Shown here piece after piece: positions 7,983 through 57,153 of a stretch of DNA of 64,000 bases. The notes beneath the pieces were generated by a model that worked only from the letters and a program-made list of their open reading frames with translations, had not been told where the DNA came from and made no database searches. The DNA is from Nitrospirota bacterium. Lineage in GTDB: Bacteria > Nitrospirota > Thermodesulfovibrionia > Thermodesulfovibrionales > UBA1546. The stretch lies in the NCBI GenBank assembly GCA_009773185.1, contig WPIF01000015.1:1-64000 (forward strand), read 5' to 3'. The translations under genes and the position numbers were made by a program. Positions within the stretch are counted from its first letter, which is position 1. Each line of letters starts with the position of its first letter.

Positions 7983-10265
7983 ATGAAAAAGAAAATAGCA
8001 TACTCGATATTATTAGTCGTGATATATCTTGGCGTTCTTAGTGCGCTAAAACATCTTGATATTTGGGAATCCCGATTTTATGAAGATGGTTTTTCTGTCA
8101 TTGTCTATATCTTTCTTAAAGTTATATTTGCCGGTTATTTCATGATGATTTTGCTGACTTCAGGAGTCGCATTGCAGCGAATTGTATTGCCTAAATCTGA
8201 TGTTTCTTCTGTTGGGTTTGGCATCTACCTAATAGCCTGTTTTTTTCTCGGGGCTTCCGCATTAGCCTTGTTAATGCTTATTCTGGGCTTCTTGAAGGCA
8301 TATTATTTTGCAACGGTTATTATAATAACAGCTCCGCTTGTGGGGTTGACCCCTTTTATACTACCTTCTTTAATGACAATCGTGAAGGCCCGGTTTTACC
8401 AGATATTGAAAACATTGTCCCCCGCAGTTAGTTTGGCTTATATAGCACTTCTTATAAGTACGGTGATTATCGCTATCGTGCTTCTGCTGCATAAGGGAAT
8501 TTTTCCGGGAGAATTAGACAGCGATGTATGGATGCATTACCTCCACTATTACAAGGAAGTTTCTGTAAATGGAAATATTTGGCCCAATGATTTGTGGTAT
8601 CACTTTTACCTTTCGAAAGGCGCAGGGTTGTTTTTCCTGGCAAGTCTCCTGACGGATGTTATGTCCCCGGCAATTGTTTCGTGGTGCTTTGTCATAATTA
8701 CTGCAATTATCGTTTATGATATTTTGAGCGAACATATCAGCTATCCGTTGTGGCCGTTATTGGGTGCATTGCTGGTTTTTCTATCGCTTTCTGCCATAAC
8801 CAATCAATATGTTACGGAGAATACTACAAGCAGTTTCTTCAAACACCATATTATCCTTATGGGGTTTATTGCCTTTGGATTTTGGTGTGCTATTCGCTTT
8901 GTTGGCAATCTATCACATGAGACTGCGTGGCTGTTAGGTATTGTAGGGGCATTAAGTTTTTTTTACATCGGGTTTTATATTCCCACAACAGTCATCCCGC
9001 TTATTGCAATATGGTTTTTTGAGGTTGCTGTGGTCTCTCTTTTTTTACAAAGGAAACCGATGCAAGCACGGGTATTCATCGGTTTTGCCGTAGCTGCTTT
9101 ATTTGGCTCGCTGTTCGCTTTCCTGATAAATTATTCCGTTACGGGCCTTGCAGACAATACTCCTGTAAGCCTTATGTGGAAGTTCGCAGACAAAGAGAGG
9201 TTCGGAAAATTATGGAGTCCCTGGATTATTGAATATTATTTTCTTGCCTCCAGCTTTGACAGCCAGCCGGTAATTCTGTCCAACATATTGAAAGTAGATA
9301 TACATTGGATAGCACAATTATGCAGGACATGGTTTTTTAAAGATGTTCCGTTATTAAGTTACTCGATTCTACTTACGGCTTTTATCGGAGCAGCCTATTC
9401 AAGGAGTTCTTGGAAGCCCGTGATATCCGCCAATAAAAGGAATGATATTTTGTATGCCGCGCTGTTTATCGGCAATGCGTTACTATTTGCCCAATTCTTT
9501 AAAAACTATAATTCATTATTTAGGTTGTATAATTTCACTGTCATATTCGTGATCTTGTTCATCATCCTCTTCTGGGCTGCCGTTCTTGGGCCGATGAGCA
9601 GGTATAAGCCGGCTATAGTCGCTGCCGTCGTTTTATTGAGCGCGGGTTTCTTTATTAAGGACCTTCCGTTGTATATTACAAAGAATCGCACTGAGGCGCT
9701 GTGGCAATATGTTACAGGGAGGATATCAACCAAGGACGCTGTGGCAGATACTGATTTCCTTATAAATTCGTATATAAAGAATGACACAAGGTTTTCGCAT
9801 TTCATCAAGGCCAATAGTTATATTAGAGACGGCAGCAAGATGTTGTATATGGGACAGGATTGCGGCCCCGGATATTTTTTCCCGGCTATGGTAGTTTCTG
9901 AACTATCGTATGCCCTTGGCAATAAATATGATGTAACTCTTTTCGGTCCCCCGGAAGAGGCGAGAAGCGCTTACCAGAGGTTGGGTATAAATTATTTTGC
10001 ATTAAATTTGCGAAGGCAATTTTTTGTTGGCTTGCCCTTTAGTCCCCTCTTTAAAGCGGAAAATGTGCAAAAGTACCTTGACCTTGTTTGGGCAGATGGA
10101 GATTTTTATTTGCTTGCATGGAAAACAGAAAACTCAGATAAGGTAATGCCGGTAGAGTTTCTCCACAAGCTGGAGCAGAAACAACTTGAAGAAAGCAAGA
10201 CAGGATGGGGAACATATTATAAGGATATGTATGAAAAATATAACCGAGGAGTTCATAGAGACTGA
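7983..10265 (+). CDS. Large polytopic membrane protein, GT-C-like, unknown
   Basis: 760 residues. About twelve hydrophobic segments fill residues ~5-580, and a soluble C-terminal domain of ~170 residues follows. A polar loop after the first block of helices reads FPGELDSDVWMHYLHYY, with acidic residues close to the membrane as in GT-C enzymes. The C-terminal part contains YMGQDCGPGYFFP and an ALNLRRQFF region that I cannot assign. The gene lies 9 bp after the previous membrane protein and 14 bp before the next. It probably acts on a lipid-linked sugar in the inner membrane with its loops outside; this is inference from shape and context. Confidence 0.55.
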   Translation: MKKKIAYSILLVVIYLGVLSALKHLDIWESRFYEDGFSVIVYIFLKVIFAGYFMMILLTSGVALQRIVLPKSDVSSVGFGIYLIACFFLGASALALLMLILGFLKAYYFATVIIITAPLVGLTPFILPSLMTIVKARFYQILKTLSPAVSLAYIALLISTVIIAIVLLLHKGIFPGELDSDVWMHYLHYYKEVSVNGNIWPNDLWYHFYLSKGAGLFFLASLLTDVMSPAIVSWCFVIITAIIVYDILSEHISYPLWPLLGALLVFLSLSAITNQYVTENTTSSFFKHHIILMGFIAFGFWCAIRFVGNLSHETAWLLGIVGALSFFYIGFYIPTTVIPLIAIWFFEVAVVSLFLQRKPMQARVFIGFAVAALFGSLFAFLINYSVTGLADNTPVSLMWKFADKERFGKLWSPWIIEYYFLASSFDSQPVILSNILKVDIHWIAQLCRTWFFKDVPLLSYSILLTAFIGAAYSRSSWKPVISANKRNDILYAALFIGNALLFAQFFKNYNSLFRLYNFTVIFVILFIILFWAAVLGPMSRYKPAIVAAVVLLSAGFFIKDLPLYITKNRTEALWQYVTGRISTKDAVADTDFLINSYIKNDTRFSHFIKANSYIRDGSKMLYMGQDCGPGYFFPAMVVSELSYALGNKYDVTLFGPPEEARSAYQRLGINYFALNLRRQFFVGLPFSPLFKAENVQKYLDLVWADGDFYLLAWKTENSDKVMPVEFLHKLEQKQLEESKTGWGTYYKDMYEKYNRGVHRD

Positions 10266-55932: not shown

Positions 55933-57153
55933 TTATCTCTGCAGCTCACGCAATTTTTTTGTGAGGATATTTTTAACCTCATCCGGAGTTATCTCCTCAA
56001 GACACCTGCTTATCTTGCTTCCGTCACAGCCGTCTTGGCCGCAGGGTATGCATTCCCGTTCTTTTTGAATAACAGTATGAATGCCAAATGTTTGTATCCC
56101 GTTTCTTTTGGGGTAGGGGTTCCCTGAATTTGAAATTTGAAATTTGTCGCCCCAGGCGACTCGCTGAGGAGAGAAATTTGAAATTTTGTTGTCCCACGGC
56201 CCCCAGTGGAAGTCGCCGCTTGGCCCGAAAAGAGCGATAACAGGGGTATTTACTGCTGCGGCTATATGCATGGGAGCGGAATCTACGCCGAAGAACAGGT
56301 CCGATGCCTCTGAGATTGCAGCAAGCTGTTTTATGTTTGTCTTGCCGCACAGGTCTATTAGCTGATGGCTGATAGCTGATAGCTCTCCTCGGCGAGTCGC
56401 CTGAGGCGACTGATAGCTGACGAGAGACAATATTTTTTTGGTTTTTTCAATTTCTCTCTTATCCGGGGACGAAGTGACAATTACCTTTGTCCCCATATTG
56501 AGCAGCCAGTTTATTACATCTGCCATGTATTCATCTTTCCAGCATTTAAATAACCACCTTGATGTGGGGTGCACATGGATGACTTTGTCCTCCCTTTGCC
56601 CCACCTTGATTGCAAAAATGTTTTTCACAAAAGTTCTTGCATCTTCCGGGATAAAAATATCCACATTAAGATTTTCCGTGCCTATGCCGAATTGCCGCAC
56701 AACAGCAAGATTTTGCAGTACCATATGTTGGCTGCTGTCATTTTTTGCGAGGTGTGTATAAAAATACCGCTTTCCGGGGAAACCGTCTTTACCTGTGTCA
56801 CTTGCCAGTCTGTATTTTGCACCCGAGGCAAAAGATATTATCGCAGCCCTGTCTCCGCTTGTGAGGTCAACCGTCATATCAAAACCTTTCCCCCTTATCT
56901 TTTTTAGAAAATATAATTCTTTCAGGTATTTTTGAACCGGATTTATTTTTTTGATAGTCCTGTCGAATGCTATTACTTCATTTATGAGGGGGTTTCCTGT
57001 CAATACAGCTTCGGTGCCTGAATTTACTATGGCAGTTATATGTGCCTGCGGAAAATTTTCTCTTAATGCCCGGAATACAGGCACAGTAAGAAGAACATCG
57101 CCTATATGGCGCAATTTTATTACAAGAATTTTTTTTATGTTTTTAAAATTCAT
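55933..57153 (-). CDS. Family 9 glycosyltransferase 3, with two in-frame repeat insertions
   Basis: 406 residues, first gene of the - strand operon. GT9 hallmark blocks: ILVIKLRHIGDVLLTVPVFRAL (N-terminus), HVHPTSRWLFKCW, and FFGVDSAPMHIAAAVNTPVIALFG. The C-terminus has a cysteine cluster (CIPCGQDGCDGSKISRC) seen in some family members. Residues ~243-267 and ~322-343 do not look like GT9 sequence: they translate two copies of a 28-bp palindromic element with flanking 7-bp repeats (LSAISHQL- and KFQISN-type residues). Both insertions keep the frame and lie between the conserved blocks, so the enzyme may still work. Confidence 0.85.
   Translation of the reverse strand: MNFKNIKKILVIKLRHIGDVLLTVPVFRALRENFPQAHITAIVNSGTEAVLTGNPLINEVIAFDRTIKKINPVQKYLKELYFLKKIRGKGFDMTVDLTSGDRAAIISFASGAKYRLASDTGKDGFPGKRYFYTHLAKNDSSQHMVLQNLAVVRQFGIGTENLNVDIFIPEDARTFVKNIFAIKVGQREDKVIHVHPTSRWLFKCWKDEYMADVINWLLNMGTKVIVTSSPDKREIEKTKKILSLVSYQSPQATRRGELSAISHQLIDLCGKTNIKQLAAISEASDLFFGVDSAPMHIAAAVNTPVIALFGPSGDFHWGPWDNKISNFSPQRVAWGDKFQISNSGNPYPKRNGIQTFGIHTVIQKERECIPCGQDGCDGSKISRCLEEITPDEVKNILTKKLRELQR
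56127..56187. repeat. 28-bp palindromic element A with 7-bp tandem flanks
   Basis: The core, 56146-56173, contains the stem GTCGCC...GGCGAC and then TCGCTGAGGAGAG. It splits a TTTGAAA tandem repeat (56127-56145 on one side and 56174-56187 on the other). The core is the reverse complement of element B with two mismatches. It lies inside the GT9 gene at 55933-57153 and stays in frame. Confidence 0.75.
56361..56420. repeat. 28-bp palindromic element B with 7-bp tandem flanks
   Basis: The core, 56383-56410, contains CTCTCCTCGGCGA and GTCGCC...GGCGAC. It splits a GCTGATA tandem repeat (56361-56382 and 56411-56420). Element A, about 210 bp away, carries the same core in inverted orientation but in a different tandem repeat. 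It lies in frame inside the GT9 gene. Confidence 0.75.

Follow-up and report, generated by a model that had tools for sequence, protein, structure and literature searches.

A putative 27-bp mobile element with two hairpins, inserted twice in frame in a glycosyltransferase gene of a Nitrospirota bacterium

The GT9 gene and its two inserts

The window analysed here, the complete stretch of 64,000 nt, contains a gene for a glycosyltransferase family 9 protein (GT9; Pfam Glyco_transf_9, 121 bits), in whose single open frame a 28-nt sequence is present twice in inverted orientation (Table 1). The two copies, designated A and B, are 93% complementary with two differences, each splits a different heptamer array and each keeps the reading frame, as the first-pass annotation had recognized. 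They are the sole two matches of the element within the window, where shuffled sequences give an expectation of 0.

Table 1. Positions of the host gene, the two element copies and the interrupted heptamer arrays in the window
Feature	Position	Strand	Remarks
Host gene, glycosyltransferase family 9 (heptosyltransferase-like)	55933..57153	-	406 aa
TTTGAAA heptamer array, left part	56127..56146		split by copy A; element-free in L122
Copy A	56146..56173	+	core 56147-56172 (26 bp), flanking N = G at 56146 and 56173
Copy A core			TCGCC CCA GGCGA C TCGCT GA GGAGA; empty site in L122
TTTGAAA heptamer array, right part	56173..56187		split by copy A
GCTGATA heptamer array, left part	56359..56384		split by copy B; element-free in L048
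Copy B	56383..56410	-	core 56384-56409 (26 bp), flanking N = G (C on + strand) at 56383 and 56410
Copy B core		-	TCGCC TCA GGCGA C TCGCC GA GGAGA; empty site in L048
GCTGATA array, right remnant after copy B	56410..56420		CTGATAGCTGA

The length of 28 bp initially assigned to the element requires correction. The 28-nt copies are real, but the inserted unit is 27 bp, consisting of the 26-bp core and one duplicated base, as follows from exact empty sites found upon alignment of the gene with orthologues lacking the insertions. L122 provides the empty site of copy A and L048 that of copy B, each with the same array in the same register and 27 bp less. With the window copies included, about ten filled/empty comparisons between relatives are available, each with a length difference of exactly 27 bp; the flanks are 90-98% identical in L011/L146, L013/L152, L152/L013, L165/L152 and the reciprocal L151/L159, and less so in L172/L153 and L152/L217. 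Consequently, insertion generates no repeat beyond a single base, and a MITE-type target-site duplication of several bp is absent from these pairs. A target duplication of 7-9 bp was considered and is excluded by empty sites of equal array length. As some insertions are shared (L003/L160 and L013/L165) and others are private, insertion went on after the species split.

Each copy adds nine codons, SPQRVAWGD to loop 2 of the GT9 protein in the case of copy A and SPQATRRGE to loop 1 in the case of copy B. These residues, thought to be new to the family, are indeed missing from the GT9 orthologues, but both loops, at about residues 246-263 and 322-345, are hypervariable in all orthologues. The AlphaFold model (pLDDT 85), the fold of which is the GT9 fold (PDB 3tov/1psw), has its lowest confidence at residues 249-260 and 328-342, which correspond to the two inserts, and low confidence also at residues 372-379, being confident elsewhere. 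As read from the sequence, copy A occupies the one frame where a TCA loop would result in TGA, its own CCA loop giving TGG. Orthologues of unrelated species with the same residues at both places, which would have refuted an insertion, were looked for and not encountered.

A dispersed family with preferred targets and a base rule

A search of the genome and its relatives for the core, as had been proposed, revealed a dispersed family. The genome that holds the window (G000, 2.79 Mb) contains 14 copies at no more than 3 mismatches and 14-15 close copies overall, with zero matches to a reversed control pattern, and a looser pattern finds 31 places, related types included. Among 61 genomes searched, 15 of the 16 from the same family possess 3-27 copies (for example 14 in G001, 12 in G007, 11 in G009, a genome 100% complete, and 26 in G010), while other members of the order have 0 or 1. 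Exact copies were found in 14 of 296 genomes sampled phylum-wide, all within the same class, and two viral contigs contain a match. The genomes surveyed are mostly draft MAGs, and copy counts are not all independent, as some copies are of common ancestry or located inside other dispersed repeats.

The general layout of a copy is N-TCGCC-loop-GGCGA-N'-TCGCC-GA-GGAGA-N, with hairpin loops of 2-3 nt. In 110 of 116 copies (GCG 66, CGC 33, ATA 8, TAT 3), the two outer bases agree and N' is complementary to them, with all four bases occurring as N; the left base matches in 113 copies, compared with a shuffle mean of 52 and a maximum of 69. When similar contexts are merged, the rule is kept in 60 of 66 distinct contexts and broken in 6, and it also holds for copies from further families within the order and class and for one viral contig. 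The loop is of the TCA type in 27 of 33 copies with N' = G compared with 21 of 66 with N' = C, an association which suggests that N' is inherited as part of the moving copy and that the target is what gets selected, the selection of the target being an inference. One copy on a contig listed as viral (L245; IMGVR_UViG_3300013125_001143, 10126-10151) has N = T and N' = A in a TTTGACCC-type array; it is located close to the contig end and could be host DNA. A related family, TCCGCC..GGCGGATTCGCC..GGAGAA (L034, L036, L042, L039), consists of two separately closed hairpins and does not fit the rule as written.

Compensatory support for the hairpins is provided by the N:N' pairs GC, CG, AT and TA and by two-sided changes in hairpin 1 (TCGCC/GGCGA to CCGCC/GGCGG). 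For the isolated 28-mer as DNA, folding energy is lowest for a single long hairpin, which is thermodynamically better than the double hairpin, so that the active fold is uncertain. The single long hairpin alone was rejected, as, despite its best energy, it is weakened or broken by the two-sided changes in hairpin 1. Both folds may matter.

With respect to targets, 46 of 116 copies fall precisely within a direct repeat of 7 or 8 bp compared with approximately 0.5% of control positions, and none of the 116 in direct repeats of 6 or 9 bp. Among distinct contexts, 31 of 66 have a period of 7 or 8, with no other period between 4 and 13, and 6 of 66 show an inverted repeat at the junction (1.2% with shuffled flanks). 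The proposal of a small mobile element that prefers heptamer repeats is thus upheld by the close copies, the 27-bp pairs and this enrichment; targeting is, however, a preference for 7- or 8-bp repeats and not exclusive, as more than half of the copies reside elsewhere, some of them within other dispersed palindromes or sister elements. At L184, the element lies within a sister element that in turn occupies a TTCTGAC heptamer array. Copies with N = A recur in the loop of a common hairpin repeat, TGGATTCCCGCTTA..GCGGGAATGAC (L025, L106, L148, L153, L154, L170, L197), as if the two had spread jointly or the loop were a hotspot.

Genes are not avoided, as 55 of 135 copies have at least 90 codons of open frame to either side, a share close to that of random positions drawn from the same loci (45%). 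All 20 intragenic host genes tested carry Pfam domains; hosts include P-type ATPases, a class I aminoacyl-tRNA synthetase, UvrA, a LarC-like nickel insertion protein, CbiG, TrpE, CarA, DXS, QueC, HslU-like AAA proteins, DnaX, an MFS transporter, a GT9 paralogue and TPR proteins, and several inserts fall between annotated domains. The element is read in several frames. In-frame survival, previously ascribed to selection or tolerance, requires no special selection, as 27 bp equal nine codons and most frames are stop-free.

Possible modes of insertion

That a mobile element is at the core of these observations is close to certain. It is probable that both GT9 copies represent insertions of a 27-nt mobile element that is non-coding, non-autonomous and composed of two short hairpins sharing the central base. 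Such an element would insert beside a base N, duplicating no more of the target than this base, and would require N to pair with N', which is demonstrated as a statistical rule. Its targets would often be slippable or foldable DNA, namely 7-8-bp tandem arrays and other palindromes, and an intragenic insertion would add nine codons, whereby copies in loops and linkers may survive.

How the element moves can be proposed only tentatively. In a single-strand guided mechanism, which has somewhat less in its favour than against it, the mobile form would be single-stranded (ssDNA or RNA) and folded into two hairpins, the single base N' would guide both ends, and insertion into strand-slipped or looped DNA would be performed by an enzyme encoded elsewhere; these steps are inferred and have not been demonstrated. 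It is conceivable, if rather unlikely, that the single central base of a 27-nt mobile nucleic acid acts as a programmable guide by pairing, at each junction, with the target base, so that C, G, T or A as N' would direct insertion only to G, C, A or T, respectively, without known transposases. If true, this would represent a minimal base-pair-guided insertion system that adds nine codons without breaking genes. No transposase that moves the element was identified in a search restricted to the Y1 and RVT_1 families, nor was an intermediate. The absence of an enzyme from a carrier is not proof, as copies may predate enzyme loss, and missing Y1_Tnp genes may also reflect gene loss or draft gaps.

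Host template switching or replication slippage, in which hairpin strand ends re-prime on another copy and strands slip at heptamer arrays, would dispense with a dedicated enzyme. The strong enrichment of copies at 7-8-bp arrays and inverted repeats is in line with such a process, as is the proposal of heptamers as polymerase-slippage units (work of Mrazek cited in PMC4679880, PMC4692102), and neither Y1 nor RVT_1 would be required in every carrier. It is nevertheless judged unlikely, as exact 27-bp ends at unrelated targets and the inheritance of N' look like a defined moving unit.

IS200/IS605 elements operate by hairpin recognition, base-pair-guided cleavage sites and ssDNA peel-and-paste. 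The lack of target duplication, the small hairpins and the guide-like base of the element resemble this logic, three Y1_Tnp genes are present in G000, and G006, which is without elements, is also without Y1_Tnp. Yet a REP/REPIN moved through ssDNA peel-and-paste by RAYT or another Y1 (IS200/IS605-like) transposase is quite unlikely, as three carriers of the element, G009 (despite its completeness), G010 and G014, gave no Y1_Tnp match, 20 Y1_Tnp loci examined contain no element-like sequence, and the copy flanks and ends lack a conserved GTAG or CGTC tag (as defined in PMC3733652). Moreover, the frequency of the element in genes differs from that of REPs, which are mostly extragenic. Membership in the REP/RAYT group is not supported. 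A small Y1 (IS200-like) transposase gene of 143 codons is located just past the window (G000:C5:71881-72246).

An RNA intermediate, that is, a transcribed double hairpin reverse spliced or reverse transcribed into DNA, is likewise of low likelihood. A precedent exists in the SDR elements of Nostoc, for which such a route has reportedly been suggested (Elhai 2008, as cited in PMC3116915 and PMC4390886), and on this strand a wobble T-G occurs at one pair in 8 of 67 unique sequences compared with 1 C-A. On the other hand, RVT_1 went undetected in four carriers whose copy numbers are given above (G001, G007, G009 and G010), and Rfam gave no match among six loci.

The suggestion that the repeats had been copied together with the element fares poorly. 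Element and array co-occur at both GT9 places, but arrays of the same unit and length are element-free in the relatives (L122, L048, L146, L152) and the same element is present in dozens of different arrays, which makes copying as a single unit very improbable. That the inserts are normal GT9 protein sequence with a coincidental DNA resemblance can practically be dismissed, in-frame placement of both notwithstanding, as the same DNA is dispersed across many unrelated genes and intergenic DNA and the residues are missing from orthologues.

Known small repeats and the turnover of heptamer arrays

By analogy, the probable mobile element described here works most like the SDR (small dispersed repeat) elements of Nostoc and its relatives. 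SDR elements are reportedly 21-27 nt long and dispersed, form a hairpin with compensatory changes and often reside inside heptamer tandem repeats; they are also said to be nested in copies and in other repeats, with an RNA intermediate having been suggested. Insertion of SDR5 is exact, between nt 3 and 4 of HIP1 (PMC3116915, PMC4390886). The 27-bp unit, dispersal, hairpins with compensatory changes, heptamer and nested sites, exact insertion and presence/absence between relatives are thus shared with this type of element, while the Nitrospirota constitute another phylum and in-frame residence in genes is frequent. Accordingly, the element was only in part 'unrecognised', with the SDR elements as a close precedent. 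New points are the N-N'-N target rule, for which a comparison with SDR elements is lacking, the insertion size accounted for as exactly 27 bp, and the residence of copies in frame within Nitrospirota housekeeping genes. The known range of the smallest mobile elements thereby extends from cyanobacteria to Nitrospirota, and empty sites together with the rule make the mechanism testable for a vague class of small dispersed repeats.

In fungal mitochondria, double-hairpin elements (DHE) and GC clusters are likewise small, dispersed and mobile with two adjacent GC-rich hairpins, but belong to organelle DNA; GC clusters have flanking repeats of 2-3 nt (AG or ACT), and heptamer targeting is not mentioned in the accounts consulted. 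Rickettsia palindromic elements (RPE) are palindromic selfish DNA present in frame in many genes, as is the element here, which with its 27 bp, compared with about 150 bp for RPE in one account, its several frames and its lack of a CGTC tag does not meet the RPE criterion of a palindrome of approximately 150 bp or with a CGTC tag and a conserved peptide. RPE-4 and RPE-6 are CGTC-tagged REPs (PMC3733652). REP/REPIN sequences of the GTAG and CGTC superfamilies are also short palindromic repeats and sometimes intragenic, including in uvrA (PMC3733652), from which the element differs in being untagged, not beside the examined Y1 genes and present without detected Y1.

Heptanucleotide tandem repeats (Geobacter metallireducens; TAACTGA; GGGAATC) resemble the target arrays, including arrays within genes, and represent the landing site, whereas the element is the lander. 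Among the long loop sequences of GT9 orthologues, a strict 7-bp period is present in 10 of 28 for loop 1 and in 10 of 16 for loop 2 (controls 0-0.9%), with repeat units that differ between species; the heptamer arrays in both GT9 loops predate the element. Arrays in genes are thus permissive sites, and array sequence and insertions turn over between close species, which is a source of variation in protein loops. G001, a close relative that shares 97% identity over residues 1-181, has other contents in both GT9 loops and an additional GGGACAGTCCC hairpin element near residue 181. Outside GT9, the array at L013/L152 is AAAGGGTC, but AAAATTC in L165. Close relatives hold entirely different 7-8-bp units at orthologous positions, both when L013/L152 are compared with L165 and when L121 is compared with the window in the GT9 loops, so that replacement of arrays seems to prevail over slow mutation.

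A second palindromic element of approximately 50 bp, GGGACAGTCCCGATTCTACGGC..GCCCGTAAATC.GGGACAGTCCC, is located in the GT9 loops of many relatives (L046, L050, L060, L064, L081, L082, L115-L119, L121). In a search of 21 genomes it was not found in G000 and was dispersed in 10, with 13 matches in G012; in L115, L119 and L121 it occurs twice per GT9 gene.
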